Shown here piece after piece: positions 41,715 through 64,000 of a DNA stretch of 64,000 bases; the stretch's first letter is position 1, and every line of letters starts with the position of its first letter. The translations under genes and the position numbers were made by a program. The stretch is from Bacteroidetes bacterium GWF2_38_335 (GTDB taxonomy: Bacteria > Bacteroidota > Bacteroidia > Bacteroidales > GWF2-38-335). Location of the stretch: the NCBI GenBank assembly GCA_001769535.1, contig MEOH01000011.1, forward strand, positions 124,001 through 188,000, read 5' to 3'. The notes under the pieces are model-generated. The model searched no databases. It was not told the DNA's origin and was given only the letters and a program-made list of their open reading frames with translations.

Positions 41715-41881
41715 AAAATATAATTTATCAGGAATGATGCACAATTTTGCATTAAATTACTGATACTTTGCAGGCCGGAAAAGTGCTAGCAAAAATAAAC
41801 AGGCACTATACCATGATCTTGAGCAAAATGGGTTTTACTTTTGAGATTATTCCTTGGTCCTATTAGAAGTGTCCCACCAAC

Positions 41882-41906: not shown

Positions 41907-41917
41907 ATTTTTAGGTT

Positions 41918-42403: not shown

Positions 42404-42488
42404 GCAAATAAGTGTAATTCAATGTATTTTTGTAAATACCAAAAAATCATGGCAGCGCATTGACGTTAATGTGCTCGGAGATCATTAA
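42404..42488 (+). pseudogene. Promoter and N-terminal remnant of an RteC-like gene (copy of 44493-44610)
   Basis: 42404-42441 equals 44493-44530 at 36 of 38 bases, including -7 element TATTTTTG. 42450-42482 equals 44578-44610 at 29 of 33. It reads TKKSWQRIDVNVLGDH-stop, the start of the 44563 protein (TKKPWQRIDVNLLGD). The start codon and 39 bp are missing, apparently by deletion between two ACCA repeats. Homology stops at about 42482, where the AbiE-2 operator begins. Confidence 0.8.
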
Positions 42489-42543
42489 ATTGTCAAGTTT
42501 TTTGCTCCATAAACTTGACAATTAGAAAAAATAATTATCTTTG
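42488..42543 (+). promoter_or_regulatory. AbiE-2 operator and promoter
   Basis: A perfect 13-bp inverted repeat, AATTGTCAAGTTT (42488-42500) and its complement (42511-42523), with a 10-nt spacer, is followed by -7 element TATCTTTG (42536-42543). The right arm contains the -33 position. The ATG at 42548 is 4 nt after the -7 element, so the mRNA should be leaderless or nearly so. Confidence 0.7.
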
Positions 42544-42547
42544 CAAT

Positions 42548-43276
42548 ATGAATTTGGCTTCACAAATAAGAAATAGAATTAAACAATTACCCGAAGGCAA
42601 AACTTTTGGGTATGAAGATTTACGTATTGCAAAGGAAGAATACTCCACAGCCGCCAAGGCACTGGAACGCATGCAAAAAGAAGGTTTGATTAAGAAAGTT
42701 TCCAAGGGTGTGTTTTATAAACCTGAACAAACTGTATTTGGAGAGTTGAAACCAGATTATAGTGAATTACTTAGACCCTTTTTGTTTGAAAATGGTAAAC
42801 GCGTGGCGTACGAAACGGGCACATCCCTGTATAACCGTTTGGGTTTGACAACTCAAATGGCTTTTCGAATTAAAATTGCCAGCCGGGGCAAACGTATTTA
42901 TATTAATCGTGGATCTTTAAAAGCAGATGCCGTAAAAAGCTATGCCGAAGTAACCGAAAGTAATTATGAAATTTTAGGGTTGCTGGATGCTTTTAAAGAT
43001 ATCAAACGCATTCCGGATTGTACTTTGGTCCAGGCAGTCCGTAGGTTGAGTGCAATTTTAAAGAAGCTCGGCGAAAAGCAAATCGAATCATTGATTAAAT
43101 ATGCTTTGGTCTATCCGCCCAGAGTAAAAGCATTGGTTGGGGCAGTTTTGCAAAATAACGGCTATGAAGGAAAAGGATTGGAAAAATTGAAAAACAGTCT
43201 TAATCCATTAACCACTATAAAATTGGGAATAAAGGAGATAGATTTACTCACAAAAAATAATTGGTATATCGAATGA
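42548..43276 (+). CDS. abiEi: AbiEi/DUF6088-type antitoxin (AbiE system 2)
   Basis: The protein has 242 residues from ATG 42548. The N-terminal wHTH is IRNRIKQLPEGKTFGYEDLR, ALERMQKEGLIKKVSKGVFY. The C-terminal domain has ETGTSLYNRLGLTTQMAFRI and LVYPPRVKALVGAVL. The plan is identical to the first antitoxin, including the spacing of motifs, but the sequences differ widely. The stop overlaps the toxin start by 4 nt. An upstream in-frame TTG at 42515 lies inside the operator and is rejected. The close -7 element implies a leaderless transcript. Confidence 0.85.
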   Translation: MNLASQIRNRIKQLPEGKTFGYEDLRIAKEEYSTAAKALERMQKEGLIKKVSKGVFYKPEQTVFGELKPDYSELLRPFLFENGKRVAYETGTSLYNRLGLTTQMAFRIKIASRGKRIYINRGSLKADAVKSYAEVTESNYEILGLLDAFKDIKRIPDCTLVQAVRRLSAILKKLGEKQIESLIKYALVYPPRVKALVGAVLQNNGYEGKGLEKLKNSLNPLTTIKLGIKEIDLLTKNNWYIE

Positions 43277-44250
43277 GATTGCACGAAAACAAAAACTTAT
43301 ACAAGGATGCCATTAGGTTTACCGCACAACAAATGAATCTGAAACCAGAATATGTTGAAAAAGACTATTGGATTACATTTGCTTTGTATACTGTTTACCA
43401 TCATGAAATTGGAAAAGACATGGTATTTAAAGGGGGAACGGCACTATCCAAATGTTACAAAATGATAGACCGTTTTTCTGAAGATATTGACTTGGTAGTA
43501 ATAAGACGAGAAGGAGAGTCAAACAATAAACTGACTACAAAAATCAGAAAAATTAGCGATATTGTTAATGCCGTCTTGCCGGAAGTAATTATTGAAGGAA
43601 TTACACATAAAATGGGAATGAACCGTAAAACAGCACACTCATACAACAAAGAATTTTCTGGTGATTACGGACAAGTAAGAAATGTTATTGTGGTAGAAGC
43701 AACCTGGTTGGGTTATTACGAACCTTTTACCACAAAAAGCATTGTTTCCTTTGTTGGTAGTATGATGCTTAATAACGGACAAACAGAAATAGCCCAGGAA
43801 TACAATTTAATTCCTTATGACCTGCAGGTATTAGAGCCCATAAGAACTATTTGTGAAAAGATAATGAGTTTGGTTCGTTTTTCATATAGCGAAAATCCTT
43901 TGGAAGATCTGAAAAATAAAATCAGACACACCTATGACTTAAATCAGTTATTGAGGCAGAAAGAATTTTCCGTTTTTATTGATTCTCCGGTTTTTGATGA
44001 AATGTTGTTGAAGGTGGCAAAAGATGATGTGGTAAGTTTTAAAAGTAATAATGAATGGCTAAATTATCATCCAGGTGAATCTTTGTTTTTTAAAGATCTT
44101 GATAATATTTGGAATGAATTGAAAGTTGTTTATAACGGAGAATTTAAAAATTTGGTTTACGGAGAATTACCAAATGAAGAAGAAGTCTTTAAGACTATGA
44201 TCAGAATCAGGGAAAGGTTAAAGCCGGTTATTTGGAATATAAAAATTTAA
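43273..44250 (+). CDS. abiEii: AbiEii nucleotidyltransferase toxin (AbiE system 2)
   Basis: The protein has 325 residues from ATG 43273 (ATGA overlap with the antitoxin). Core motifs are KDYWITFALYTV, VFKGGTALSKCYKMIDRFSE, then DIDLVV with D71 and D73 in the same numbering as toxin 1. IRTICEKIMSLVRFS and IRHTYDLNQLL mark the helical C-terminal part. The catalytic residues are intact. The operon lies between a broken and an intact copy of the start of the RteC-like gene, so it was probably acquired as a cargo module. Two non-identical AbiE systems in one island can avoid cross-neutralisation. Confidence 0.9.
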   Translation: MRLHENKNLYKDAIRFTAQQMNLKPEYVEKDYWITFALYTVYHHEIGKDMVFKGGTALSKCYKMIDRFSEDIDLVVIRREGESNNKLTTKIRKISDIVNAVLPEVIIEGITHKMGMNRKTAHSYNKEFSGDYGQVRNVIVVEATWLGYYEPFTTKSIVSFVGSMMLNNGQTEIAQEYNLIPYDLQVLEPIRTICEKIMSLVRFSYSENPLEDLKNKIRHTYDLNQLLRQKEFSVFIDSPVFDEMLLKVAKDDVVSFKSNNEWLNYHPGESLFFKDLDNIWNELKVVYNGEFKNLVYGELPNEEEVFKTMIRIRERLKPVIWNIKI

Positions 44251-46496: not shown

Positions 46497-46793
46497 ATGG
46501 ATGTAATAACAATTGAAACTGTTGCCTTTACACAGATTATGGCTAAACTTCAAAGTCTTGAAGAAAAATTTATAGAACTAAAAGAACAAGCATCATGTCC
46601 TTTAAATGAAAAATGGCTTGATAACCAGGATGTAATGCTATTGTTGAAATTGAGCAAAAGAACTCTTCAGAGTTATAGAGATGAAAAGAAAATTCCTTTT
46701 TCTCAAATAGGTGCAAAAATATACTATAGAGCATCTGATTTTGACAAGCTTCTGAAAAAGAACTATCAAAAAACAATTACAAATGGTTTATAA
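46497..46793 (+). CDS. Excisionase-type helix-turn-helix protein
   Basis: The protein has 98 residues. After an N-terminal helical part (TIETVAFTQIMAKLQSLEEK), residues about 40-95 form the HTH_17/MerR-like winged helix typical of Bacteroidota mobile elements: WLDNQDVMLLLKLSKRTLQS, YRDEKKIPFSQIGAKIYYRA, DFDKLLKKNY. Proteins of this type accompany integrases and VirE/VapE primases in conjugative and satellite elements and regulate excision or replication. Its stop is 1 nt before the preferred VapE start, so the two are one transcription unit. Confidence 0.85.
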   Translation: MDVITIETVAFTQIMAKLQSLEEKFIELKEQASCPLNEKWLDNQDVMLLLKLSKRTLQSYRDEKKIPFSQIGAKIYYRASDFDKLLKKNYQKTITNGL

Positions 46794-46794
46794 A

Positions 46795-48860
46795 ATGACC
46801 GAACTAACAATCTTCCAAAACTTCACAAAAGTTGTAGCCAACCTAAGCATTGAAAAAATTGTTGCTGTTATAAAAAGCAATAAATACAAAGCTCAGGTTG
46901 CAAAGCTCCAACTTTTGTTGAAGCAAGGAAAAGATAAGGAGTACGCCCAAAGCAAAAAGTCGCTGCCGGCGTTTACTCCTTCGGGAAAATTCAAGGATGG
47001 AAGAAAAATGGAATTCCTCCAGGAATATTCCCGCATTATCATTCTCGACATTGATAAGGTTGAAAATATTACCGAAATCAGAAAAAAAGCAGAAAACTGT
47101 GTGTTTACTCATGTTTGCTTTATCAGCCCCAGCGGAAACGGCTTAAAAATCCTTGTAAAAACAGATAATTCTGTATCAAAACACAGGGAAGCTTTTTTGG
47201 AGGTCCAGGAATACTACGAAAAACTCTTGAACATTAAAATTGACCCATCAGGCAAGGACGTTAGCCGTCTTTGCTTTTTTTCATGGGATCCGGAAATTTA
47301 TGTGAACAATGAATCTGAAATTTTTAAAACAAAAAAAGAAATGAGTATAAAAAGTGATATTGAAAATCTGATTGAACAGATTGACGGAAAAAAGGTGGAT
47401 ATAACCGGTGATTACGATGAATGGATAAAAATTGGCTTTGCCCTGGAATCGGAGTATGGCGAATTTGGCCGACCATATTTTCACGACATCAGCCGGCACA
47501 ACCATACCTATAATGCCGAAGCATGCAATGAACAGTACACAAAATGTCTGAGGAATAACCGTTTCGGGATAACTATTAGAACATTGTTTCATATTGCAAA
47601 GAAGTATGGAGTGGTTGTTAAATCCATTAATAAACGAGTGGAAAATAATGAAAAGGAGGAGGATAATTTTCCGGTAAAGGAATCTAAAACAGTTAAAATT
47701 AAGGAGAGGAAAAAGATCACTTCAAACAAATTCAATATAGCTGAAGAGTATTTAAATCAAAGGTATGATATCAGGTATAATTCTGTAAACAATAAATTTG
47801 AGTATAAGGAAAAGGATGCGAAAGAATATGAGGATCTGAATGAAAACAATCTGTACGTTAAGCTTCAGAAAGATAATATCAATTTGAGTTTGAATAATCT
47901 TGTGGCTTTGCTTAAATCGGATTTTGTGAACAAGCATGATCCTTTCCTTGAGTACTTTAAAAGTTTGCCTCAATGGGATGAAGCAACAGACTATGTTGAG
48001 CATCTTTGCAGTTTTGTAAAGGCAAAGGAACAGGAAAGGTTCAACCATCATTTTTTAAAGTGGTTGGTTAGAACTGTAAAAACAGCAACAAATCCGGATT
48101 CCTATAACAAACAGGCATTTGTTTTAGTAAGCAATCGCCAGAATTCCGGTAAATCTACATTTTGTCGTTTTCTTTGTCCGAAGGCATTATCCGGTTACAT
48201 TGCTGAAAACATCGGAACAGATAAGGACAGCCATGTGGCTATTACAGAAAACTTTTTGATTAACCTGGATGAACTTTCTCAGGCCGAAAAAGCAGAGATT
48301 AATGCTTTTAAATCAATGTTTTCAAAAGACAGAGTAAAAGCCCGGCTTACCTATGACAAAAGAGCTTCAATACATGTAAGGCGTGCAAGTTTTCTTGGTT
48401 CCACTGACAAATGGGAATTCCTTACCGATGAAAACGGAAGTGTGCGCTGGTTGTGTATGGAAATAGAGTATATTGATTGGAATTACAGCAAGGAAGTGGA
48501 CATGGATAATGTGTATTCAATGGTATGGCATCTGGCAAAGGACAAAGAGTTTGTTTCAGAGCTTACCAGAGATGAAATTGAAGAGAATGACAGGATAAAC
48601 AAGAAATTTCAGATTTCATCTCCTGAAGCAGATTTGGTAGAACGTTTTTTCGAGCCGGCTGGGGAGGACGAGGACGGTTTTTTTACAACGCCACCGAAAT
48701 CTTAGAGCATATTATGACAAAAACAGCCATAAAACTGGCTCCGGAAAAGGTGGGGAAAGCACTGAGGTTTCTTAATTATGAGCGCACAGCAAAAAGGATT
48801 AATGGTAAGTTAAAGCATGGCTATTATCTTAAAAATGTAAATGAAATTGCAAATAAATAG
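46795..48860 (+). CDS. VirE-N/VapE primase-helicase, frameshifted at a T7 run
   Basis: Two domains are seen. The N-terminal BT4734/VirE_N primase-like domain has FTPSGKFKDGRK, IILDIDKV, HVCFISPSGNGLKILVKT, DVSRLCFFSWDP. The C-terminal VapE (SF3-like P-loop ATPase) has NRQNSGKSTFCRFLC (about 448-462), FLINLDELSQ, RASFLGSTDKWEFL. The zero frame stops at 48705. The family C-terminus continues in the -1 frame from 48684 to 48860 (NATEILEHIMTKTAIKLAP, KVGKALRFLNYERTAKR). The switch lies on GGT-TTT-TTT, a U-UUU-UUU slippery site (48678-48684). It could be a real mutation, a sequencing error, or programmed slippage. ATG 46795 is preferred over 46783, which overlaps the HTH gene. Confidence 0.8.
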
Positions 48861-49472: not shown

Positions 49473-52271
49473 ATGTCAAAAACTGAAACTGAAACAAGGA
49501 AAGAGATAATTGACAACCGACTTAAGCAAGCGGGATGGAATATCAACGACCGTACTCAAGTGATGGAAGAATTTGATATAATTATTGACAAAAATTTAGT
49601 CCAAGAAGCACCAACTCCATACGCCGGACATCAATACAGCGACTATGTTTTATTGGGAAAGGATGGCAAACCACTTGCAGTTGTGGAAGCTAAGAAAACT
49701 TCAGTTAATGCAGCACTCGGACGGGAACAAGCCAAACAATATTGCTACAATATACAATCTACTCAAAGTGTAGAGTTGCCTTTTTGCTTTTATACTAATG
49801 GTCACGATATTTATTTTTGGGATTTAGACAATTATCCACCTAAAAAAGTATACGGTTTCCCGACCCGTGACGACCTTGAACGTTATTCCTACATTCGCAA
49901 AGCAAGAAAGCAATTAGCAGGTGAACTGATTAATACTAAAATTGCAGGACGCAATTATCAGATTGCTTCTATTCGTGCCGTAATGGAAGCTATTGAAAAG
50001 CGGAAGCGCAAATTTTTGTTAGTCATGGCGACTGGCACTGGAAAAACAAGAACTTGTATTGCTTTGGTTGATGCATTAATGAGAGCTGGTTGGGCGGAAA
50101 GGGTTTTGTTTTTAGTGGACAGAATTGCGCTTCGTGATCAAACATTGGAAGCATTCAAGGAACATTTACCCAATGAACCCCGCTGGCCAAAACAAAGTGA
50201 AAAAGAAATTGCAACAGACAGAAGGATTTATGTTTCGACTTATCCGACTATGTTGAACGTAATTAGACATGAAGAAAAATCGTTAAGCCCACATTTCTTT
50301 GACTTGATTGTGGTAGACGAAAGCCACCGTAGTATTTACAACACCTATCAGGAAATACTTGATTTTTTCAATACCATTACTCTTGGTTTAACAGCCACTC
50401 CAACGGATGTAATTGACCACAATACGTTTCAATTATTTGAATGCGAAGATGGCGTGCCGACTTTTGCATATTCCTATGACGAAGCAGTAAATCACATTCC
50501 GCCATTTCTGAGCAATTTTCAGGTAATGAAAATTAAAACCAAGTTTCAGGATGAAGGAATAAACAAGAGGACAATTTCATTGGAAGACCAACAAAAATTG
50601 ATGTTGGAGGGTAAAGAAATTGAAGAAATCAATTACGAAGGTACAGATATTGAAAAGAAAGTAATCAACCGGGGGACAAATGCCTTGATAGTCCGTGAGT
50701 TCATGGAAGAAAGCATCAAAGATGCCAACGGAGTATTACCAGGTAAAACAATTTTCTTTTGCATTTCAAAAGCACATGCAAGACGTGTTGAAGAAATATT
50801 CGATTCACTTTATCCCGAATATAAAGGCGAATTAGCCAAAGTATTGGTAAGCGAAGATCCAAGAGTTTACGGCAAAGGTGGTTTGCTTGACCAGTTTGTT
50901 CACAATGATATGCCACGAATTGCAATTAGTGTTGACATGCTCGACACTGGCATTGATGTTCGTGAGTTGGTTAATTTAGTTTTTGCAAAACCTGTTTACA
51001 GTTATACTAAGTTTTGGCAGATGATAGGCAGAGGAACTCGTTTACTCGAACCTGAAAAAATTAAACCATGGTGCACTCAAAAAGATAATTTCTTGGTTCT
51101 TGATTGTTGGGACAATTTTGAATATTTTAAACTCAACCCAAGGGGTAAAGAGATAAAAGGACAGATTCCTTTACCCGTTCGATTATTTGGTGTGCGATTA
51201 GATAAAATTGAAGAAGCCCAAACACAAAGCAAATTTGAGATTGTAAACAAAGAAATTCAGAAAATCAGAAAGCAGGTTGAGTTGCTTCCGAAAAACTCCG
51301 TGGTGATTATGGAAGCTCGAAACGAGTTACAGCGATTGGAAGATGAAAACTTTTGGAACAACCTGACTTCCGGCAAAATGGAATTTTTGGAAGCCGTTGT
51401 AAAACCATTGCTACGCACGGTTTCGGATGTTGATTTCAAAGCCATGCGATTTGAAAAAGACATTGTTGAAGTTTCGTTGGCTCATTTATCTGGTGAAGCA
51501 GAAAAATTTGAAACGCTAAAAGAAAGCATCATTGAAGAAATTGGCGAACTGCCTTTGAGTATTAATATTGTGGCACGAGAGCAGGAATTAATTCGTCAAG
51601 CACAAAGCAATCATTATTGGTCAACCATCAATGAAGATAAGTTTGAAGAACTGATTCTAAAACTTTCACCTTTGATGAAATTTCGTGAAGCTGTTATTCC
51701 TTTAGCACCTGCAAAATTCAACCTAAAAGATATTGTTGCTGAAAAAGAATTTATTGAGTTTGGGCCACAACACGAAGCATTGAGCGTAGCTAAATACCGA
51801 GAACTGGTTGAAAAGAAAATCAATGAATTGGTTACAGGCAGTCCGATTCTACAAAAACTAAAACAAGGGCAAGAAATTACATCAGATGAAGCTGAACAAT
51901 TAGCCGAGGAACTACACAACGAACATCCGCATATTACCATTGATTTACTTCGCAAGGTTTACAACCACCGCAAAGCTGCATTAGTGCAATTTATCAAACA
52001 TATTTTGGGTATTGAGCAGCTGGAAACTTTTGCAGAAACTGTTTCTAAAGCATTTGATGATTTTATTTCAAAACATAGTTACCTTACCAGCAGACAACTT
52101 CAATTTCTTGACTTGCTAAAGAATTTTGTATTGGAAAAAGGCGATGTAAGTAAGCGCAATCTGATTGAATCTCCCTTTACAATGATTCATCCCGAAGGCA
52201 TTAGAGGAATATTTAATCAAAAAGAGATTGACGAAATTTTAAGTTTAACGGAAAAAGTATTAGCAGCATAA
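49473..52271 (+). CDS. hsdR: Type I restriction enzyme, R subunit
   Basis: The protein has 932 residues. The N-terminal PD-(D/E)xK nuclease is SDYVLLGKDGKPLAVVEAKK (D57, E72, K74). The SF2 translocase has Walker A MATGTGKT (185-192), DESH box at 282-285, motif III GLTATP, and motif V-VI ISVDMLDTGIDV / QMIGRGTRL. The C-terminal part (EcoEI R_C-like) is helical. It cleaves DNA lacking the modification set by HsdM/HsdS. All catalytic motifs are intact, so restriction should be active. It has its own strong promoter and is first in the operon hsdR - Bro-N gene - hsdM - hsdS - DUF4917. Confidence 0.96.
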   Translation: MSKTETETRKEIIDNRLKQAGWNINDRTQVMEEFDIIIDKNLVQEAPTPYAGHQYSDYVLLGKDGKPLAVVEAKKTSVNAALGREQAKQYCYNIQSTQSVELPFCFYTNGHDIYFWDLDNYPPKKVYGFPTRDDLERYSYIRKARKQLAGELINTKIAGRNYQIASIRAVMEAIEKRKRKFLLVMATGTGKTRTCIALVDALMRAGWAERVLFLVDRIALRDQTLEAFKEHLPNEPRWPKQSEKEIATDRRIYVSTYPTMLNVIRHEEKSLSPHFFDLIVVDESHRSIYNTYQEILDFFNTITLGLTATPTDVIDHNTFQLFECEDGVPTFAYSYDEAVNHIPPFLSNFQVMKIKTKFQDEGINKRTISLEDQQKLMLEGKEIEEINYEGTDIEKKVINRGTNALIVREFMEESIKDANGVLPGKTIFFCISKAHARRVEEIFDSLYPEYKGELAKVLVSEDPRVYGKGGLLDQFVHNDMPRIAISVDMLDTGIDVRELVNLVFAKPVYSYTKFWQMIGRGTRLLEPEKIKPWCTQKDNFLVLDCWDNFEYFKLNPRGKEIKGQIPLPVRLFGVRLDKIEEAQTQSKFEIVNKEIQKIRKQVELLPKNSVVIMEARNELQRLEDENFWNNLTSGKMEFLEAVVKPLLRTVSDVDFKAMRFEKDIVEVSLAHLSGEAEKFETLKESIIEEIGELPLSINIVAREQELIRQAQSNHYWSTINEDKFEELILKLSPLMKFREAVIPLAPAKFNLKDIVAEKEFIEFGPQHEALSVAKYRELVEKKINELVTGSPILQKLKQGQEITSDEAEQLAEELHNEHPHITIDLLRKVYNHRKAALVQFIKHILGIEQLETFAETVSKAFDDFISKHSYLTSRQLQFLDLLKNFVLEKGDVSKRNLIESPFTMIHPEGIRGIFNQKEIDEILSLTEKVLAA

Positions 52272-52276
52272 AAATG

Positions 52277-52301
52277 AAACCGTGACAATTCGTCACGGTT
52301 T
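52277..52301 (+). promoter_or_regulatory. Hairpin between hsdR and the Bro-N gene
   Basis: A perfect 10-bp stem AAACCGTGAC / GTCACGGTTT with a 5-nt loop, right after the hsdR stop. No T-run follows, so it is unlikely to end transcription fully. It may protect the hsdR message end or tune downstream expression. Confidence 0.5.
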
Positions 52302-52327
52302 GAATAAACTGAAAACGAACAGAGTAT

Positions 52328-53185
52328 ATGGAAAAGAAAAATGAGATAAAAATATTTGAAGACAGGAAAGTAAGGACTTTATGGGATAATGAACATGAAA
52401 AGTGGTATTTCTCGATTATTGATGTAATTGAAGTGTTAACTGACAGTCCAAGACCACGAAAATATTGGAATGCCTTAAAAACAAAACTTAAAGCTGAAGG
52501 AAGTGAGTTGTCCCAAAATTTGGGACAACTGAAAATGCAATCGGCTGACGGGAAGTTTTACCTTACCGATGTAGCTGATACCGAACAACTTTTCCGATTA
52601 ATACAATCAATCCCATCACCCAAGGCCGAACCCTTTAAGCAATGGCTGGCACAGGTAGCAGCAGAACGATTGGACGAAATGCAAGACCCCGAACTCAGTA
52701 TTGACAGGGCACTAGAACAATACCTAAAACTTGGCTATTCAGAAAATTGGATTAACCAACGCCTCAAAAGCATTGAGATAAGAAAAGAACTAACAGACGA
52801 ATGGAAAAAAAGGGGATTGAAAGAAGGTGTTCAGTTTGCTACGCTTACCGATATTATTACCAAAACCTGGAGCGATAGAACCACCAAAGAATACAAAATT
52901 CTGAAAGGTTTGAAAAAGGAAAACCTACGGGATAACATGACCAATACAGAACTCATCTTAAACATGCTTGCCGAGGCATCCACAAAAGACATATCAGCCG
53001 CAACCAATCCGAAAGATTTTGAAGAAAGTAAGAAAGTTGCAAAACAGGGTGGCAATGTAGCAAAGGTAGCACGTAAAGAACTGGAAGCTAAAACCGGTAA
53101 AAAGGTAGTTACTGCTCTAAATGCCAAAACCGCATTGCAATTGAATGAAGGTGGCAAGAAAAAAACGAAAAGCAAAAAGAAGTAG
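52328..53185 (+). CDS. Bro-N domain (antirepressor-type) protein in the hsd operon
   Basis: The protein has 285 residues. An N-terminal Bro-N domain (FEDRKVRTLWDNEHEKWYFS, IIDVIEVLTDSPRPRKYWNA, LTDVADTEQLFRLIQSIPSP, KAEPFKQWLAQVAAERL) is followed by a DinD-like helical part (LGYSENWINQRLKSIEIRKE, GLKEGVQFATLTDIITKTW) and a Lys-rich tail. Bro-N proteins of this type are common passengers in type I loci and may regulate them or respond to DNA damage. It ends exactly where hsdM begins (0-nt gap). A perfect 25-nt dyad lies inside the gene at 52506-52530. Confidence 0.85.
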   Translation: MEKKNEIKIFEDRKVRTLWDNEHEKWYFSIIDVIEVLTDSPRPRKYWNALKTKLKAEGSELSQNLGQLKMQSADGKFYLTDVADTEQLFRLIQSIPSPKAEPFKQWLAQVAAERLDEMQDPELSIDRALEQYLKLGYSENWINQRLKSIEIRKELTDEWKKRGLKEGVQFATLTDIITKTWSDRTTKEYKILKGLKKENLRDNMTNTELILNMLAEASTKDISAATNPKDFEESKKVAKQGGNVAKVARKELEAKTGKKVVTALNAKTALQLNEGGKKKTKSKKK

Positions 53186-54754
53186 ATGTTACAAAATAAT
53201 GCACAATTAAAATCGCTTATTGAAAAGCTTTGGCAGAACTTTTGGGAAGGTGGCATTGCCAACCCTTTAACTGCCATTGAGCAAATTACCTATCTTATTT
53301 TCATGAAACGTTTGGACGATTTAGAAGCCAAACGAGAGCGTGATGCCGAGTTTACAGGAGAAAAATACGTTTCGCGATTTGCAGGGAAATTCAACGTTCC
53401 GGGCAGTACCGAAAGCATCGATAAAAATGAATTACGTTGGAGCGTATTTAAACACAAGCCGGCAGATGAAATGCTATTCCATGTGCAAATGAAAGTGTTC
53501 CCATTTCTTAAGGATTTGAACGGTGAAACTTCACCTTTCACCAAACACATGGCAAATGCTGTGTTTATAATGCCCAAAGCAAGTTTGCTGGTTTCTGCCA
53601 TCAACATTGTAGAAGATATTTTCAAGGAGATTGAAAAAGATGCCACCGAAGGCGGACATGCATTTCAGGACATTCAGGGAGATGTTTATGAAATGCTTTT
53701 GAGTGAGATTGCTACAGCAGGTAAAAATGGACAGTTCCGCACACCTCGGCACATTATTAAACTGATGGCTGAGCTAGTTGCTCCCCAATTGGGACAACGC
53801 ATTGCTGACCCTGCCTGCGGAACAGGCGGTTTCTTGCTTGGCGCTTATCAATACATTCTCACCGATTTAGTGAGGAAAAAAGACCCTGCAAAACTGAGCA
53901 AAGACGAAGACGGATTTGAACGTGCCGCTATTAGTGCGGTTTTAACTCAAAAAGTAAAAACCATTCTCGACCAAAGTTTTGTGGGCTATGATATTGATAC
54001 CACCATGGTACGTTTGGGTTTAATGAATCTTATGATGCACGGCATTGACGAGCCCAAAATTGACTATAAAGACACCCTGAGCAAAAGCTACAACGAAGAC
54101 AGCCAATTCGACATTATTATGGCAAATCCGCCATTTACTGGGAATATTGACAAAGGCGACATTAATGAAGGGTTAAAACTACCCACCACCAAAACGGAAC
54201 TACTCTTTGTAGAACGTATTTTTAACATGCTCAAAATGGGTGGAACGGCTGCCGTTATTGTACCAAGTGGTGTAATACAAAACAGCGGTAAAGCATTTGA
54301 AGCCTTACGGAAAATGATAATTGAAAAAGCCGAACTAAAAGCCGTAGTAGCTGTTCCAAGTGGAGCCTTTAAACCTTATGCAGGCGTAAGCACAGCCATA
54401 TTGATTTTTACCAAAGGCGGAGAAACCAATAATGTATGGTTTTACGACATGCAATCAGACGGCTATAGCTTAGACGACAAACGAAACAAAATAGCTGAAA
54501 GTGATTTGCCCGACATTGTGCAACGCTACAAAAGTAGAGATGCCAAAAAAGATAGCGACCGCAAGTTGAAATATTTTATGGTTCGGAAAAAGGAGATTGT
54601 AGAAAACAATTACGACCTCAATCTGAGCACCTACAAAGAGGAAGTGTATGAAGAAGTGAAATATGAGAAGCCCAATTTGATTTTCAAGAAACTTGAAACC
54701 TTAGAAGAAAGTATTCAAAGTGGATTAAAAGAACTAAAGCCGCTTATTCAATGA
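53186..54754 (+). CDS. hsdM: Type I DNA adenine methyltransferase, M subunit
   Basis: The protein has 522 residues. An N-terminal helical HsdM_N (LKSLIEKLWQNFWEGG, YLIFMKRLDDLEAKRE) precedes the methylase core. AdoMet motif I is DPACGTGG (208-215), the catalytic motif IV is NPPF (314-317), and FRTPRHIIKLM precedes the core as in HsdM proteins. It methylates adenine at the site read by HsdS and forms the M2S enzyme, adding R for restriction. It abuts the Bro-N gene and overlaps hsdS by 4 nt (ATGA). All motifs are intact. Confidence 0.96.
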   Translation: MLQNNAQLKSLIEKLWQNFWEGGIANPLTAIEQITYLIFMKRLDDLEAKRERDAEFTGEKYVSRFAGKFNVPGSTESIDKNELRWSVFKHKPADEMLFHVQMKVFPFLKDLNGETSPFTKHMANAVFIMPKASLLVSAINIVEDIFKEIEKDATEGGHAFQDIQGDVYEMLLSEIATAGKNGQFRTPRHIIKLMAELVAPQLGQRIADPACGTGGFLLGAYQYILTDLVRKKDPAKLSKDEDGFERAAISAVLTQKVKTILDQSFVGYDIDTTMVRLGLMNLMMHGIDEPKIDYKDTLSKSYNEDSQFDIIMANPPFTGNIDKGDINEGLKLPTTKTELLFVERIFNMLKMGGTAAVIVPSGVIQNSGKAFEALRKMIIEKAELKAVVAVPSGAFKPYAGVSTAILIFTKGGETNNVWFYDMQSDGYSLDDKRNKIAESDLPDIVQRYKSRDAKKDSDRKLKYFMVRKKEIVENNYDLNLSTYKEEVYEEVKYEKPNLIFKKLETLEESIQSGLKELKPLIQ

Positions 54755-55929
54755 CATTACTGAAAGACATAGCTCAAATAGAGAAGGGAAGAAAATACAA
54801 CTTACTTGAAGAAAATCAAGAAGGTGCAATTCGTGTGTTTCAGGCAAATGATTTCAGAAATGAAAACAAACCGCTTTACACTTTAGATGATGATGGAGTT
54901 TTAGCACAAGAAGATGATATTATGATGGTTTGGGACGGTTCTGTTGGGCAAATGGGTTTTGGTAGAAGCGGTTATGTGGGAAGCACGATGGTAAAATTGA
55001 AAGTGAAAAACAAAAAACAATTTTCGCCATTTTTTATTTACAGATTTCTTCAGACCAAATCGGAATATCTAAAACGTAAAGCTACAGGGGCAACCATCAT
55101 GCACATAAACAGGAAATCATTGGAACAACTTATAATTCCTGAATTAGATTTATCAGACCAACTCCACATCGCCAATCTCCTCAGCAAAGCCGAAAACCTG
55201 ATAAGCCAACGCAAAGAAAGCATTCGTCTGTTGGATGATTTTCTGAAAAGCACGTTTTTGGAGATGTTTGGAGATATACAAAAAATGAAGGAAATGAAGT
55301 CTGAAAATTTTTCAGATCACATTGAGTTCTTAACAAGTGGTTCAAGAGGTTGGGCAAAATACTATTCAAATACTGGTGCAAAATTTTTAAGAATACAGAA
55401 TGTTTGGAAAGGGGCATTGAGGATTGATGAACTGCAATATGTAAATGCTCCAAAAACACAAGAAGCAATCAGAACAAAGGTGCAAGAAGGAGACCTGCTT
55501 ATTACAATTACAGCGGATTTGGGTAGAACAGCAGTAGTTCCAAAAAATTTTGGAGAAGCATACATCAATCAACATATTGCTCTTGTTAGGCTAAAGAAAT
55601 CTGTTAACCCGACCTATGCTGCATTCTATTTTTTCATGCCTTTTGGATATTCAGCAATTCAAAAGAAAAATAAATCAGCGGTCAAATCAGGCTTAACTTT
55701 TAATGATATTAAAACATTACCAATAATAGTTCCTCCTATCAAACTCCAAATCCAATTTGCCCAAATCGTAGAAAAAACAGAAGCCCTCAAAATACAATAT
55801 AAACAAAGCTTGCAGGAGTTGGAGAATTTGTATGGGAGTTTGAGTCAAAGGGCGTTTAGGGGGGAGTTAAGCATAAAAGATGAAAGTTTGTTAATGGCTG
55901 CGGAGCCGGAAACTAAATACGGTGAATAA
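54751..55929 (+). CDS. hsdS: Type I specificity subunit S
   Basis: The protein has 392 residues. It has two target-recognition domains: TRD1 (1-145, with MMVWDGSVGQMGFGRSGYVG and IMHINRKSLEQLIIPE) and TRD2 (about 190-345, with LITITADLGRTAVV and VKSGLTFNDIKTLPIIVPP). They are separated by the conserved helix (HIANLLSKAENLISQRKESI) with a matching helix at the C-terminus (FAQIVEKTEALKIQYKQSLQ). It sets the bipartite DNA target, which cannot be read from sequence. No second hsdS or invertase is present, so phase-variable shuffling is not indicated. Confidence 0.94.
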   Translation: MTLLKDIAQIEKGRKYNLLEENQEGAIRVFQANDFRNENKPLYTLDDDGVLAQEDDIMMVWDGSVGQMGFGRSGYVGSTMVKLKVKNKKQFSPFFIYRFLQTKSEYLKRKATGATIMHINRKSLEQLIIPELDLSDQLHIANLLSKAENLISQRKESIRLLDDFLKSTFLEMFGDIQKMKEMKSENFSDHIEFLTSGSRGWAKYYSNTGAKFLRIQNVWKGALRIDELQYVNAPKTQEAIRTKVQEGDLLITITADLGRTAVVPKNFGEAYINQHIALVRLKKSVNPTYAAFYFFMPFGYSAIQKKNKSAVKSGLTFNDIKTLPIIVPPIKLQIQFAQIVEKTEALKIQYKQSLQELENLYGSLSQRAFRGELSIKDESLLMAAEPETKYGE

Positions 55930-55931
55930 AA

Positions 55932-56987
55932 ATGGCAGGTGAAGAATTAATGACATATCAACAAGTGATAGAATCTTTGAATAAAAAAGGACGACAGAAA
56001 CATTTGTTGCTTGGGAATGGATTCAGTATGTCTTATGATTCAGGTATTTTCTCATACAATGCATTAAGTGAGTTTCTTGAAAACTTGGATAATGACGTAC
56101 TTCAAAAGCTTTTTCAGATAATCAAAACAAGCAACTTTGAATTATTGATGGAGCAACTCGATAATGTAGCTCAAATAGCAGAGGTTTTTGAGGCAGATAA
56201 AAAGGTTGTTGCTAATATTCGGAAAGCCACAGAAACACTTAAAGAAAGTCTGATTGATGCCATTAAAGAACTGCATCCTGAACATGTATTTGAAATTCCT
56301 GAAAAAAAAAGTAAAGCATGTGCAATTTTCCTGAATGAGTACCTGTCAAAAGAAGGTAACATCTTTACCACAAATTACGATTTATTGCTTTATTGGGTGT
56401 TAATGAGAAACCAACTTGACCGAATAGGCGATGGGTTTGGGAGAGAAACAGATGATACTGATGAATGGATTGCGCCCGAAGATAGAGATTGGTCGGAATT
56501 GCGTTGGGGCAAAAACAGCGACACACAATCTATTTTCTATGTTCATGGTGCTCTTCATTTGTTCGATACTGGAATTTATGTTATCAAAGAAGAATACAAT
56601 AATGAACATGTTTTGCTTGAGAATGTGAAAAGAAGAATGGAACGGAAAGAATATCCAATTTTTGTAACTGCCGGAAACGGAGAAGAAAAGCTAAGTCACA
56701 TTCGCCACAATCGTTATTTATCATATTGCTACGAAACGCTTTCAAACATTGAAGGAACTTTGATTTGTTTTGGTTTTGGTTTCGGTGCATATGACGAACA
56801 TATTATTGCTGCCATCAATAAAGCTGCAAAAAAGAAGAAAGATAAAGATGGTAAATGGCACATATTAAATAGTATTTACATCGGCGTTTATTCTGATACA
56901 GATATGAAGCACTTAAAATCAATAGAAAACAAGTTTAAATGCTATGTCAGATATTTTGATGCAAAAACTGTAAATGTATGGGAATAA
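55932..56987 (+). CDS. DUF4917 family protein, SIR2-like candidate effector
   Basis: The protein has 351 residues, cytoplasmic. Motifs fit a SIR2-like Rossmann fold: LLLGNGFSMSYD (G28-N29-G30-F31-S32), FTTNYDLLLYW (T146-T147-N148-Y149-D150), YVHGALHLF (H205-G206), FGFGFGAYDEHI (about 279-290). In SIR2 proteins the corresponding N and H residues act on NAD+. DUF4917 genes are seen with restriction systems, and SIR2-type partners in other defence systems deplete NAD+. It begins 2 nt after hsdS, so it belongs to the operon. The NADase role is inferred from the motif pattern only. Confidence 0.75.
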   Translation: MAGEELMTYQQVIESLNKKGRQKHLLLGNGFSMSYDSGIFSYNALSEFLENLDNDVLQKLFQIIKTSNFELLMEQLDNVAQIAEVFEADKKVVANIRKATETLKESLIDAIKELHPEHVFEIPEKKSKACAIFLNEYLSKEGNIFTTNYDLLLYWVLMRNQLDRIGDGFGRETDDTDEWIAPEDRDWSELRWGKNSDTQSIFYVHGALHLFDTGIYVIKEEYNNEHVLLENVKRRMERKEYPIFVTAGNGEEKLSHIRHNRYLSYCYETLSNIEGTLICFGFGFGAYDEHIIAAINKAAKKKKDKDGKWHILNSIYIGVYSDTDMKHLKSIENKFKCYVRYFDAKTVNVWE

Positions 56988-57112
56988 GCAATGATTGTAA
57001 TATGAAAAATCTTTAAATAGGAGTCGACTTTAAAAGATAAAAGTTTTCAATGGCAGTGGATCCTGAAATGAAATATGGAAAAATAAATAATAAAAAAAGT
57101 AATTATGAATTT

Positions 57113-57469
57113 GTGAGCAGTTGAAGAGCTGAAGTATGCGTTTTAAGGTATAAACGAAAGTTTTGTCTCGCCCAACACGAAAAACTGTTGGTGGAAAGGT
57201 ATTTCAGAAATGCAAGGATATAATGAATTTATTTCATTTACTCCTAAAGCAATAAGCTGAACCAGTAAGTTAACAACTAACTGGATTACCTTAACGATTG
57301 GATGTTTCTTTAAGTTCATATTTGAATTTATAAGTAAATATACAATTAATATTTCGCTACCCAGCTTGAGTCGGAGCGGCACTTAGGTGTCGAAAAAGCA
57401 TGCATACTTCGGGATTTGGGTAACCAAATCTAAAAGCAAATAGCTTCGCATTGGGTCTTCACTGCTCAC
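57113..57469 (+). ncRNA. Candidate structured RNA template/partner of the reverse transcriptase
   Basis: The 500-nt gap before the RT gene is non-coding on the forward strand and highly structured. The closing stem is 57113-57121 with 57461-57469 (9 bp), continued by 57123-57126 with 57457-57460. The second long-range stem is GAAGTATGC 57131-57139 with 57402-57410. The third is TTAAGGTA 57143-57150 with 57287-57294. Local hairpins are 57172-57177/57186-57191, 57262-57271/57275-57284 (one mismatch), and 57413-57419/57424-57430 with a GUAA tetraloop. The 3' stem end is 17 nt before the RT start. The upstream TGAATTTG (57106-57113) is a weak -7 element. Confidence 0.7.
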
Positions 57470-57486
57470 TTCTTTTTGAAAATTAA

Positions 57487-59037
57487 ATGTTAAAGAAAAA
57501 GGAAAAAGATTGGTTCAAGATTAAACGGTATCCTCATATTGGGTTGCCCTTAAACCCTAATGACCGATACAAATGGATTGAAAAATATGTAACCGACCCT
57601 GAATCGGTTGCAATTCATTCCTTTTTGCCTTTTATTCACAAAACATCAAGAGTTAAGAAATTCCGAAAGGTATATTCTAAAGAAAACGGTAAAATAAATT
57701 CTGACTTTGTTAAGGGTTATAAAATACTTCGAAATCCCAATGAAAAGAAAAGGGAGCTTTTTTACGCAAGTCATTTAGATTCATTGATATTCAGTTATTA
57801 TGCAAAAAAACTTTCTGAACAATACGAAATAAAACTAAAAAGCAAAGAATATAATTTAAATGAGGTTGTAAATGCATATCGTTCAATCCCAATTAATCCT
57901 AAGGATGAAAATAGTCCTAGCAAATGCAATATCAATTTCGCAAACGACATTTTTAAATACATACTTAATTATCCGGAAAATCAATTTACAGTAATAGCAT
58001 TTGACATTTCAAGTTTCTTTGATAATCTGAACCATAAATTACTCCGTGACCGATGGTGTGATGTTTTAGAAGTTGACAAACTGCCGCCAGACCATTTCAA
58101 CGTTTACAAAAACATTACACGTTTTAGCCATGTTGATATCGTAGATATTTTTAAGGAGTTCGAAAACAGAATTTATACTCGCAAAATAAATAAATTTGGA
58201 AAACCGTTAGAAATCAACCAAAAACCAGTTGAAAAGCTAAAATTTCTTCGCAATCAAAATGCTATTGCTTTTTGTAAGGAAAAGGAATTCTTTAAAGTTA
58301 AGGGTAAACTTATACAGCCATCGAAGACAAAGAAATTAAAAGATGGAACGATTGTTTATCGCGATTTTGGAATTCCTCAAGGTTCTCCAATAAGTTCCAT
58401 TTTAGCAAATATATACTTATTGGAATACGATAAGAAGATTAACGATTTTATTCAGGTTAATGGTGGCATTTATCGCCGTTATTCCGATGATATGGTTGTT
58501 GTTTGTCCTACACATGCAAAAGATGAAATTACTGAATTGATTAGCAAAGAAATATTAGAATATAAACTTGAAATTCAGGATACAAAAACACAAGGTTTCC
58601 AATTTAAACGTGAGGGTGATAGATTAATTTGCGGACAGGAATTTCCTGAAGGGATAAATTGGAATAAAAATCTTATATATTTAGGTTTTGAATTTGATGG
58701 CCAAAATGTTTTATTAAAATCAGCAAGTTTATCAGGTTTTTATAGAAAAATGAAACGCTATGTCAGGCGAGCAAAACGATATTCGAAATATAAACATGCA
58801 AAAAATAACGGTGAAATTTTCAAACATAGAATTTTCAAGAAGTTCTCATACAGAGGAGCTAAACGGATTCGAAAATACATTTGGAGTAAAAAGGAAAATA
58901 AATTTGAGCGAAGCGAATCATATAATTGGGGCAACTTTCTTTCTTACACTAGAAAAGCCGCCAAGTACATGGTAAATAATAAGATTAATCAACAAACAAA
59001 AAGACATTGGAATATTTTAAATGAACTTATTAAATAG
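57487..59037 (+). CDS. Defence-type reverse transcriptase (DRT2-like candidate)
   Basis: The protein has 516 residues. RT motifs are: A VIAFDISSFFDNLNH (D173), B GIPQGSPISS (295-304), C RRYSDDMVV (Y332-S-D-D335), D EIQDTKTQGF, E LIYLGFEFDG. The N-terminal region (KRYPHIGLPLNPND, HSFLPFIHKTS, ELFYASHLDSLIFSYYAKKL) is not that of group II intron maturases, and no X/HNH domains are present. The C-terminus is Lys/Arg-rich and helical. Retron NAxxH and VTG motifs are not evident. By eye the pattern is closest to unknown-group RTs of the DRT2 type, which act alone with an upstream ncRNA. Catalytic Asp residues are intact. It follows a type I RM operon and a SIR2-like gene. Confidence 0.85.
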   Translation: MLKKKEKDWFKIKRYPHIGLPLNPNDRYKWIEKYVTDPESVAIHSFLPFIHKTSRVKKFRKVYSKENGKINSDFVKGYKILRNPNEKKRELFYASHLDSLIFSYYAKKLSEQYEIKLKSKEYNLNEVVNAYRSIPINPKDENSPSKCNINFANDIFKYILNYPENQFTVIAFDISSFFDNLNHKLLRDRWCDVLEVDKLPPDHFNVYKNITRFSHVDIVDIFKEFENRIYTRKINKFGKPLEINQKPVEKLKFLRNQNAIAFCKEKEFFKVKGKLIQPSKTKKLKDGTIVYRDFGIPQGSPISSILANIYLLEYDKKINDFIQVNGGIYRRYSDDMVVVCPTHAKDEITELISKEILEYKLEIQDTKTQGFQFKREGDRLICGQEFPEGINWNKNLIYLGFEFDGQNVLLKSASLSGFYRKMKRYVRRAKRYSKYKHAKNNGEIFKHRIFKKFSYRGAKRIRKYIWSKKENKFERSESYNWGNFLSYTRKAAKYMVNNKINQQTKRHWNILNELIK

Positions 59038-60732: not shown

Positions 60733-62619
60733 TTAATGCTGTACATTCACTTTGATCGAGTTTTTGCTCCCTAGCTCTCCATCGGTTACAATATAGGTTC
60801 CAGTTGGCAGACTGCTTACATCAACTTGCTCAAACCCCATTTTGTCTTTAATTGGAATTGTTATTAGTTTCCTGCCCTGAAGATCATATATGTTAATTGA
60901 CCCTGAACCTGTTAAGGATATATATTCTATCTGTAAAATATCATTCACCGGGTTGGGAAATGCCTTAAAACTGATGTTTGGCTCTGAGATTTCCTCTACA
61001 TCATAAGTGTTGGAAAAAATTATTTTATATGAATACCAAGGACAGGAGTAATCAAAATAACCTTGAACGGATGATGAATAATATGTTGAATATGCAACAT
61101 AAACACTGTCCAAAGGCTCCCCAACGTTTGCTGCAACCAAACTGTCATAATTAATAAGGTAACTGCAAATGCTATCAATTGCGACAAACGGGTATTCCAC
61201 CCGAAGAATTGTTGTATGTTGTGAAGTCCTAAAGTACAAACAAATATTATATAGATACTCTTGTCTGTCTCCAAACAATCTAAACTGCAGATTATAGTCT
61301 GTTCCTATTTTTACAGTATCTGGCAAGTTGAGAAATTGAACATGGAATGTAGTATCGCAGGAACCAAAATTATCACAATAATCCTCATCCGTTTTAACCA
61401 ACCAAATATTTTGTGATGCAGGATAAATCTCATTTATTCCCGGGTTGATGGAAAAACCCACCAAAATTATTCCGTTTGGTTCCACAAGCAAATCTAAAAA
61501 ACAGTCATTCCATGCAACCATAGGGTAACCTTCTGTTCCAATTACAATTGAGTGGAACGGTCTTTTTTTTAATACTTCCCCGTTTGGAGAAAGCTCATAT
61601 AATTTTGGAAAAAACCTATATTGTTCTGGCAAATCAGCAGTCATATTTATTGTTAAAAGATTTCCATTGTCCATTTCAACAATTTTAGTGAATTTCGAAA
61701 AGTATGGATATTCTTCGTTATTGTAATTATAATATGGTTCTAAATATAATGTGTCTTTGATGACATTTTTATTTATATCAAACTTTAACAAACGTGAATA
61801 TGAAAAATTATCAACATAATCACTACCATAAGTCTTGCCTCCAACGGCAATAAAATTGCCATCCTGAGTCTGTATCAAATCATTGATATAACCATCATCG
61901 AAGCCGGGGTTTTGTATTATCCAGTCCCAAACCTGATTTCCTAAACTGTCGGATCGGATTATATACCAGTCGGATCGGTACATATCATATTTCCTACTGT
62001 CTCCCGCAAGCATGAAACCGCTGTCGGGGGTTTGGATCAGGCAAGTTGCACCATCTGTATTAGCATACCCATAGTATTTTACCCATTCTTGGTTTCCTAA
62101 ACTGTCCGTCTTTAATAAAAACACATTATAATCTGTTGTGTTTGAAAAAACTGCTCCACAAACTGCATAGCCCTTATCAATTGTTTTAATTATTTCAAAT
62201 GCTGCAATATCCATGGTATCTTTTAGATAATTGGCAAACCAAACTGTATCCAAATATTCATTCAGACAAGTAATAGTTATATTATTAGAGTCATTACTAT
62301 GGTTAAAATCCGTTGTTAAAAGAACCAACTGTTCCTTGTCATTAATAACCATAGGAGTTTTACCTCCTTCATAAATACTAAGTTGCTCAGGAACAATTAA
62401 TAATGAATCTATTTTATTAAAGATCTCGTCAAATTTATGAAGTTTTACACCCCTGAAATTACCGTCATCGCTTGAACAAACAATAAATGAAGAATCCATT
62501 TTCACAATGGCATTGCAAAATGTATTGTGGGTATCTGGAAACAGTTTATTAAATACAACCTGGGCATTTGTACTGCAAGCAGACCAAGCAAAAATTATGA
62601 CGGTTGTTAAAAGTTTCAT
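60733..62619 (-). CDS. T9SS type A sorting-domain protein, tandem paralogue 1
   Basis: The protein has 628 residues with a signal peptide ending ACSTNAQ. Residues 20-400 contain beta-propeller-like blades with repeated phrases (LIQTPDSGFMLAGDSRK, YIIRSDSLGNQVWDW, LIQTQDGNFIAVGGKTYG), the delta-60/PQQ-like repeat type. A linker with NFGSCDTTFHVQFLN follows. The C-terminus is a type A sorting domain (FKAFPNPVNDILQIEYISL, INIYDLQGRKLITIPI, LPTGTYIVTDGELG). It is exported and probably surface-bound. A partial tandem paralogue upstream at 62680 shares two near-identical blocks with diverged sequence in between. Confidence 0.88.
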   Translation of the reverse strand: MKLLTTVIIFAWSACSTNAQVVFNKLFPDTHNTFCNAIVKMDSSFIVCSSDDGNFRGVKLHKFDEIFNKIDSLLIVPEQLSIYEGGKTPMVINDKEQLVLLTTDFNHSNDSNNITITCLNEYLDTVWFANYLKDTMDIAAFEIIKTIDKGYAVCGAVFSNTTDYNVFLLKTDSLGNQEWVKYYGYANTDGATCLIQTPDSGFMLAGDSRKYDMYRSDWYIIRSDSLGNQVWDWIIQNPGFDDGYINDLIQTQDGNFIAVGGKTYGSDYVDNFSYSRLLKFDINKNVIKDTLYLEPYYNYNNEEYPYFSKFTKIVEMDNGNLLTINMTADLPEQYRFFPKLYELSPNGEVLKKRPFHSIVIGTEGYPMVAWNDCFLDLLVEPNGIILVGFSINPGINEIYPASQNIWLVKTDEDYCDNFGSCDTTFHVQFLNLPDTVKIGTDYNLQFRLFGDRQEYLYNICLYFRTSQHTTILRVEYPFVAIDSICSYLINYDSLVAANVGEPLDSVYVAYSTYYSSSVQGYFDYSCPWYSYKIIFSNTYDVEEISEPNISFKAFPNPVNDILQIEYISLTGSGSINIYDLQGRKLITIPIKDKMGFEQVDVSSLPTGTYIVTDGELGSKNSIKVNVQH

Positions 62620-62635
62620 ACGAGTGTTATATATT

Positions 62636-62659
62636 AGCAGGGGAATATATTCCCCTGCT
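62636..62659. repeat. 24-bp perfect palindrome between the two paralogues
   Basis: AGCAGGGGAATA and its exact complement (62636-62659) form a strong hairpin, followed on the forward strand by TTTTGTTT. It lies downstream of the 62680 gene and upstream of the 62619 start, so it may terminate the upstream paralogue or act as a regulator site. Confidence 0.55.
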
Positions 62660-62679
62660 TTTGTTTAACTTTTTTAGTA

Positions 62680-64000
62680 TTAATGCTGTACATTCATTTT
62701 TATTGAGTTTTTACTTCCTAACTCTCCATCGGTAACAATATAGGTTCCAGTGGGCAGACTGCTTACATCAACTTGCTCAAACCCCATTTTGTCCTTAATT
62801 GGGATTGAAATTTGCTTCCTGCCCTGAAGGTCATAAATGTTAATTGTCCCTGAACCTGTTAATGATATATATTCTATTTGTAAAATATCATTTACCGGAT
62901 TGGGGTAAACTTTTAAAGTTAGGTTGGGTATTGAAAGTTCGTTTACATTGTAGGTATCAGTAAATACAATTTTATTTGTGTACCAGGGACAGGAGTAGTC
63001 AGAATAACCTGAAACGGAATCGGAGTAATTTGTTGAATAAGAAACAAAAACACTATCAATGGCAATACCGTTATTAAAAGCGACCAAACTATCATAATCA
63101 ATAATATAATGGCATATTGTCGATAATTCTATGTTTGCAAACTGGACCGTATGAATTAATGAGTCTGTTGTACGAACCTTAAGATTCACATTATATAGAA
63201 ATTCTGCTCGATTGCCAAATAACTGCATCTGAAGATCAAACTCATTACTTCTATTAATTGTATCTGGTAAATTCAAAAATTCCACATGGTAAGTAGTATC
63301 GCAAGAGCCCCAGTTATCACAATAATCCAAGTTGGTTTTAACAATCCAAATATTTTGAGTTGCCGGATGTGGATTATAAATCCCAGAATGTGAGGAGAAG
63401 CCGCACATTATAACCCCTTCTGGTTCAATAACCAAATCAAGCAGACAGTCATAATAGGGTATTCCAATTGTAACGGAATGAAAAGATCTTTTCTTTAGAA
63501 GTATGCCATTTTTAGATAACTCATATAATTTTGGAAACGATGAAAACCTTTCTGGTAAATCTGACGTCATATTAATTACCAACAGATTTCCGTTTTCTAT
63601 TTCTTTGATTTTCAAGAACATTGACTCAAAGAGATATTCAGGACTGTCATCGTTATAATATGGTTCTAGGTACAAGGTATCAATAATAGTGTTCTTTTCA
63701 TCATCAAACTTTAACAAACGTGAATATGAAAAATTATCAACATAATCACTACCATAAGTCTTGCCTCCAACGGCAATAAAATTGCCATCCTGAGTCTGTA
63801 TCAAATCATTGATATAACCATCATCGAAGCCGGGGTTTTGTATTATCCAGTCCCAAACCTGATTTCCTAAACTGTCGATACGGATTATATACCAGTCGGA
63901 TCGGTACATATCGTATTTCCTACTGTCTCCCGCAAGCATGAAACCGCTGTCGGGGGTTTGGATCATGCAAAAGGCACCGTCAGAATTACTATAACCATAA
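62680..64000 (-). CDS. T9SS type A sorting-domain protein, tandem paralogue 2, 5' end outside window
   Basis: The frame stays open to the right edge (YGYSNSDGAFC precedes the first internal Met at 63966), so the start is beyond the window; at least 440 residues are visible. It shares with paralogue 1 the propeller block (YIIRIDSLGNQVWDW to GKTYGSDYVDNFSYSRLLKF) and the sorting domain (INIYDLQGRKQISIPIKDKM), while the middle has diverged (FLKIKEIENGNLLVINMTSD). It contains NWGSCDTTYHVEFLNLPD, as in paralogue 1. It is exported by the T9SS; function is unknown. Confidence 0.88.
   Translation of the reverse strand, partial: YGYSNSDGAFCMIQTPDSGFMLAGDSRKYDMYRSDWYIIRIDSLGNQVWDWIIQNPGFDDGYINDLIQTQDGNFIAVGGKTYGSDYVDNFSYSRLLKFDDEKNTIIDTLYLEPYYNDDSPEYLFESMFLKIKEIENGNLLVINMTSDLPERFSSFPKLYELSKNGILLKKRSFHSVTIGIPYYDCLLDLVIEPEGVIMCGFSSHSGIYNPHPATQNIWIVKTNLDYCDNWGSCDTTYHVEFLNLPDTINRSNEFDLQMQLFGNRAEFLYNVNLKVRTTDSLIHTVQFANIELSTICHYIIDYDSLVAFNNGIAIDSVFVSYSTNYSDSVSGYSDYSCPWYTNKIVFTDTYNVNELSIPNLTLKVYPNPVNDILQIEYISLTGSGTINIYDLQGRKQISIPIKDKMGFEQVDVSSLPTGTYIVTDGELGSKNSIKMNVQH

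Follow-up and report, generated by a model that had tools for sequence, protein, structure and literature searches.

The DRT2 kind of anti-phage system is already known, and we compare our locus with KpDRT2 of Klebsiella (PMC11100668, PMC12039810; PDB 9c0i). KpDRT2 combines a reverse transcriptase (RT) with an upstream noncoding RNA (ncRNA) that consists of a 5' part, a template, and a 3' scaffold with a pseudoknot; a short direct repeat (ACA-1 and ACA-2, the jump repeat) lies on either side of the template; the repeat unit measures 111-129 nt, a multiple of 3; and a stop-free hydrophobic frame, neo, runs across the junction of successive cDNA repeats, where alone a promoter arises, of the sigma70 -35/-10 type with a 17-bp spacer (PMC12039810). 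Helical folds were reported for the Klebsiella Neo in the Tang 2024 preprint, whose authors also had difficulty annotating Neo in the more divergent clades of DRT2 and considered other mechanisms (PMC11100668). Two further systems bear comparison. DRT9 likewise couples a Class 2 UG RT to an ncRNA template, but it produces a deoxyadenylate homopolymer from a U tract, is protein-primed, forms a hexamer, and lacks neo (PMC12632851). DRT10 (UG17) also makes tandem-repeat cDNA from an ncRNA, by repeat addition, but is protein-primed and tripartite, its cDNA drops on infection, and it, too, is without neo (PMC12632851).

Here, we describe a locus from Bacteroidetes bacterium GWF2_38_335, contained in the 64,000-nt stretch of DNA that we analysed (hereafter, the window; contig MEOH01000011.1, positions 124,001 to 188,000). 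It shares with KpDRT2 the RT family and fold, the order of the RNA parts (with a pseudoknot that is only likely here), the flanking direct repeats, a unit length divisible by 3, a predicted hydrophobic open frame across the junction, and a predicted promoter that arises only there. We consider it very probable that the locus is a DRT2 anti-phage system, in which an ncRNA template is turned into a concatemeric cDNA that carries a junction promoter and an endless Neo. Its features are collected in Table 1.

Table 1. Coordinates of the RT, the ncRNA, and the predicted template and gene elements within the window.
Feature	Position	Strand	Basis
DRT2 ncRNA, 357 nt	57113..57469	+	boundaries by terminal-stem pairing; z -6.1; covariation; upstream of RT in 28 close relatives
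Terminal stem, 5' arm (partner 57462-57469)	57113..57120	+	double changes in 7/8 pairs
Long-range stem, 5' arm (partner 57402-57410)	57131..57139	+	97.9% of cells paired; double changes in 7/9 pairs
Hairpin immediately 5' of template	57172..57191	+	99% of cells paired; double changes in 4/5 pairs
Jump repeat 1, TATTTC, core ATTT, template 5' end	57200..57205	+	identical 6-mer at 57350-57355
Predicted template / neo repeat unit, 150 nt, 50 cDNA-strand codons, frame from 57349	57201..57350	-	same frame open in three clades
-33-like element CTTG, end of one cDNA repeat	57213..57216	-	junction motif analysis
ATG, predicted Neo translation start, within stop-free frame	57317..57319	-	frame analysis
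-7-like element TATATTTA, start of next cDNA repeat, 20-bp spacer over junction	57335..57342	-	consensus TAnnTTTG (PMC7366714, PMC9723704)
Jump repeat 2, TATTTC, immediately 3' of template	57350..57355	+	identical to 57200-57205
ACCCA, candidate pseudoknot 5' arm (partner TGGGT, 57452-57456)	57359..57363	+	partner segments co-change in most relatives; weak statistic
Scaffold hairpin	57378..57391	+	99% of cells paired; double changes in 4/5 pairs
GTAA-loop hairpin	57413..57430	+	78% of cells paired; double changes in 7/7 pairs
DRT2 reverse transcriptase, 516 aa	57487..59037	+	profile, PDB sequence, AlphaFold model and fold searches

The reverse transcriptase and its upstream RNA

The RT is encoded by a single intact ORF with the motifs IAFDIS, GIPQGSPISS, and YSDD, as an initial annotation of the window had reported. 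It belongs to DRT2 (UG2/Drt2), the assignment made alike by PADLOC, by NCBIfam, and by searches of the PDB with sequence and fold: PADLOC gave Drt2 464.8 bits, against 71 bits for the second family, RT_UG17 (DRT10); the NCBIfam Drt2 equivalog model scored 370.7 bits, slightly below its cut-off of 390; the best PDB sequence matches were the KpDRT2 chains (9c0i, 1.3e-55); and Foldseek, run with an AlphaFold model of mean pLDDT 82, placed 9c0i on top (E = 1.7e-35, TMt 0.82) and DRT9 second (5.5e-12). The RT groups neither with group II introns nor with retrons, scoring only 76.7 bits on the intron RT model TIGR04416 (cut-off 300) and only 50.2 bits on retron_St85 (cut-off 235), and Rfam returned no match over the whole window, intron RNA included. 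With the RT placed in DRT2, the question of a diversity-generating retroelement does not arise. The protein is ~90 aa longer than KpDRT2. This length, the NCBIfam score below the cut-off, and a jump repeat other than ACA could be taken to indicate a separate class of RT-ncRNA system, retron-like or new, as the initial annotation had contemplated. We consider that reading extremely improbable, given that DRT2 was far ahead in every profile and fold search, that the order of parts is the same and the logic of neo is retained, and that the additional length is made up of loops between conserved motifs. What endures of the initial interpretation is a DRT2-like RT of Bacteroidota with a cognate upstream ncRNA, in a defence island; its suggestion of a separate or retron-like class does not.

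The surroundings likewise bear out the island of AbiE and type I RM genes noted earlier. Two consecutive AbiEi/AbiEii pairs lie at 40033-44250, and a type I RM operon (49473-56987) adjoins the DRT2 RNA on its upstream side; in it, a BRO-N gene (PADLOC PDC-S13) separates hsdR from hsdM, and hsdS is followed by a DUF4917/SIR2-like gene (PDC-S21). Elsewhere in the window, a 640-aa primase-polymerase-like protein (46783-48705) matches PADLOC RTasVirE-PriCT2 and PrimPol, and two adjacent genes at 60733-63966, the result of a recent duplication, encode large proteins that are nearly identical and whose C-terminal sorting-like ends match.

A profile scan of bacterial genomes yielded 80 loci, nearly all from Bacteroidota. 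The RT tree comprised three clades, A (33 rows, including the window), B (16), and C (24), and the comparison set was the window plus 72 relatives. The window RT was most closely related to RTs from Flavobacteriaceae, Chitinophagaceae, and Cyclobacteriaceae, while the window genome belongs to the order Bacteroidales. An RT homologue was present in only 4 of the 99 genomes searched, its own included, where the system occurs as a single copy; such patchy distribution is common for defence genes. Scanning IMG/VR with the clade alignment returned 43 pattern matches, none of them a relative. In Moraxella caprae, a DRT2 close to the Bacteroidota type (L088:2761-4261) has a broken RT reading frame; upstream of it, the cDNA strand shows a TTGACA-like element in place of the Bacteroidota boxes.

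The folded RNA proposed upstream of the RT proved real, and its limits hold good as boundaries set by pairing. Region 57100-57490 folds to -116.1 kcal/mol (z = -6.1), a value equalled by none of 100 dinucleotide shuffles. In clade A, where the upstream regions can be aligned from the terminal stem through the RT start, the five stems named in the window pair in 90.9% of cells and show double changes in 29 of 34 pairs (21 relatives), so that the homologues do conserve an upstream structure. The covariation score of the five stems was 0.517, versus 0.230 after shuffling (0/500 as high) and 0.107-0.185 with slid partners. RNAalifold recovered, unaided, the long-range stem, the pre-template hairpin, and the scaffold hairpin. 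Compensatory changes, the check initially suggested for the terminal and long-range stems, were found in both. The GUAA-loop hairpin that had been singled out exists and has double changes in all of its pairs, yet only 78% of cells can form it, and no other structural element varies as much. A pseudoknot like that of KpDRT2 is likely, as judged from the pairing of ACCCA with TGGGT, which would cross the long-range stem 57131/57410. The corresponding arms co-vary in relatives (CCGACT/AGTTGG and CCAAAT/ATTTGG), and the mean pairing score was 12.7 for own versus 11.7 for swapped partners, a difference that is weak as a statistic.

Predicted template, reading frame, and junction promoter

The template, jump repeats, junction promoter, and neo frame had escaped the initial annotation, whose account was to that extent incomplete. 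Two conserved ATTT motifs flank the variable middle of the clade A RNA. They lie 108, 132, 141, 150, 153, 156, 159, or 162 nt apart in 25 of the 29 sequences, the window included, and each of these 25 gives a reverse-complement concatemer that is stop-free in the same frame, while the remaining two cDNA frames contain stops. After removal of redundancy, 18 of 21 clade A units were divisible by 3 and open in that frame; when one template end was displaced by 1 or 2 nt, only 1 or 2 of the 21 lengths stayed multiples of 3. Single units subjected to dinucleotide shuffling were open in the neo frame in 0.5-6.9% of cases. Because the relatives are not independent, multiplying these odds naively (1e-31) does not yield a p-value. 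The ORF test also passes junction shifts by 3, the base-exact junction being set solely by the repeats.

The other two clades follow the same rule with different repeats. Clade B has ATACC, units of 147-159 nt, and an open frame in 18/18; clade C has ATTC, units of 129-153 nt, and an open frame in 26/26, 22 of them with template ends anchored by alignment columns. In the remaining four (L059, L074, L082, and L096) the column anchors were wrong, and re-anchoring by their own repeat pairs, which in L096 is ATACC, restored lengths divisible by 3 and an open frame in each. Both template ends of L068 read TTTC where those of its relatives read ATTC. The units that obey the rule thus span 108-162 nt across clades A, B, and C, always with the same open frame. 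A sequence's own two ends matched each other better than ends swapped among relatives in clade A (p 0.0045) and clade C (p 0.013); for clade B, which is too uniform, p was 0.053. Taken over the three clades, in which its features recur, the comparison shows a predicted 150-nt template between two TATTTC repeats in the window.

The predicted concatemer of the window has one stop-free cDNA frame across the junction, encoding a 50-aa hydrophobic repeat, LIVYLLINSNMNLKKHPIVKVIQLVVNLLVQLIALGVNEINSLYPCISEI, with an in-frame ATG. Neo has a mean hydropathy of +0.8 to +1.0; the alternative cDNA frames score -0.1 to -0.5. AlphaFold modelled one Neo unit as two helices at low confidence (mean pLDDT 67). 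Clade B units, for example EIVIFVTKLINTSNMFRKLKRRTNLRVSTVIMLLITLSSLILSLEHLEIGI, are alike over most of their length. Amino-acid conservation in clade A is weak, and conservation of the Neo ends is partly due to promoter and repeat DNA. In a codon-position test, changes at third positions were mildly favoured over all pairs and clearly so in Sphingobacterium only; because this signal is mild, we do not claim selection at the amino-acid level for clade A.

At the junction, the cDNA strand of the window reads CTTG-N20-TATATTTA, followed 15 nt further by the ATG in the open frame. In the genome, the order of the two promoter halves is reversed, and only the cDNA repeat junction would join them correctly. 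In clade B the junction reads TTTG-N20-TATCTTTG, which equals the consensus of the Bacteroidota housekeeping sigma factor, -33 TTTG and -7 TAnnTTTG (PMC7366714, PMC9723704). With alignment anchors, the junction motif TTG-N17..23-TAnnTTT was found in 21 of 29 clade A units, 17 of 18 in clade B, and 21 of 26 in clade C, and the spacer was 20 bp in 56 of the 59 motif-bearing junctions; within a single linear unit, the same motif occurred in three cases in clade A and in none in B or C. These data show a putative Bacteroidota-type promoter that would be reconstituted over the repeat junction, in place of the sigma70 type of KpDRT2.

It is conceivable that template and concatemer are as described and that the product functions as a nucleic acid, DNA or RNA, with the open frame a by-product of base composition or structure. 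DRT9 and DRT10 work without a protein-coding product (PMC12632851), the RNA-sense frame is open too in part of the relatives, and the amino-acid conservation within clade A is weak. We nevertheless judge this very unlikely, as the neo frame of the cDNA is the only one that stays open in every unit obeying the rule and lengths vary solely in steps of 3 over three clades, besides the rarity of open frames after shuffling, the hydrophobic bias, the similarity of clade B Neo units over most of their length, and the presence of a promoter and an in-frame ATG. That the window holds a decayed, non-working copy strikes us as very improbable as well. The system is single in its genome, with few homologues among the genomes searched, and the window promoter is imperfect (CTTG at -33, and a -7 element ending in A); against this, the RT is intact with its catalytic motifs, all stems pair, the frame is open, and the repeats are identical over 6 nt.

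The favoured reading, a protein-coding neo, is also supported by a blind scan for a shared 4-mer, a length divisible by 3, an open cDNA frame, a junction TTG-N18..22-TAnnTTT, and an in-frame ATG. Of 93 upstream regions, 63 were positive, versus 0-6 of 93 in each of ten shuffles; the controls gave 3 matches on the wrong strand and 14 among 239 further pieces taken from these loci. Plasmid controls (L101-L103) also yielded candidate units, which are not proof because relatives are missing.

Proposed mechanism, exceptions, and implications

By analogy with KpDRT2, the RT would begin copying at the 3' repeat of the ncRNA and proceed as far as the 5' repeat, the nascent cDNA end GAAATA would re-pair with the 3' repeat, and the RT would go another round. 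The predicted concatemer consists of 150-bp tandem units, in which ...CTGAAAT at the end of one unit is joined to ATTAATTG... of the next. After phage infection, the second strand would be synthesised and the housekeeping sigma factor would read the promoter at every junction. Translation from the ATG would then give a long, hydrophobic, mostly helical repeat protein, which would arrest the cell before the phage spreads.

Two loci may hold natural records of such copying. In Capnocytophaga leadbetteri, two identical 132-nt units stand in tandem inside the RNA gene (L029:4583-4846), joined at ATTT, exactly at the modelled jump site, while the sister locus L037 has one unit. Recombination of a cDNA into the locus, a plain duplication from one repeat to the other, or an assembly that took in reads of cDNA could each explain the tandem, and each requires the same repeat pair. 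In oral taxon 338, a 43-nt stretch elsewhere in the genome (L100, G493:C1:2222623-2222665) is 91% like the Capnocytophaga template and is perhaps a captured piece of cDNA.

A few neo genes appear to be terminated, as judged from their predicted frames. Three Cyclobacteriaceae units of 148 nt (L021:4683-4830, L022:4677-4824, and L023:4684-4831), whose frames were read by eye, have in common an ORF of ~38-39 codons from the ATG, which in L022 reads MLKKKHTSHKVYRIVRRLLVHIVARLLLEIILRWFAFLE; its stop falls at the junction in L022 and at most 9 codons past it in L021 and L023, which puts the full length of this conserved ORF at ~38-48 codons. We tried junction shifts of -1 and +2 for these loci, and L023 still hit a TAG just upstream of the ATG; because this TAG remains, we read the three as terminated. 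The fourth apparent case, L033, has a length of 167, with five extra bases relative to L034 between the -7 element and the ATG.

We found no description of a Bacteroidota neo, of jump repeats other than ACA, of a Bacteroidota junction promoter, or of a terminated neo in the literature searched, which included the Tang work in its preprint form; the later Science article may cover part of this. Bacteroidota mostly lack Shine-Dalgarno sites, and the differences from the Klebsiella system would suit Bacteroidota hosts. We give roughly even weight to accepting or doubting a broader proposal, namely, that DRT2 gene synthesis is a general design whose repeat and promoter are retuned to the host, and that Cyclobacteriaceae make a terminated protein from a gene that exists only after copying. 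If true, an endless frame would not be required for a DRT2 neo. The approach finds genes that are invisible to ORF callers: with it, we predict some 70 hidden neo genes at single-nucleotide precision, in a phylum whose promoters are of another type, and they would allow direct tests of what the mechanism needs, i.e., whether any short repeat suffices, whether the promoter must be that of the host, and whether the frame must be endless.
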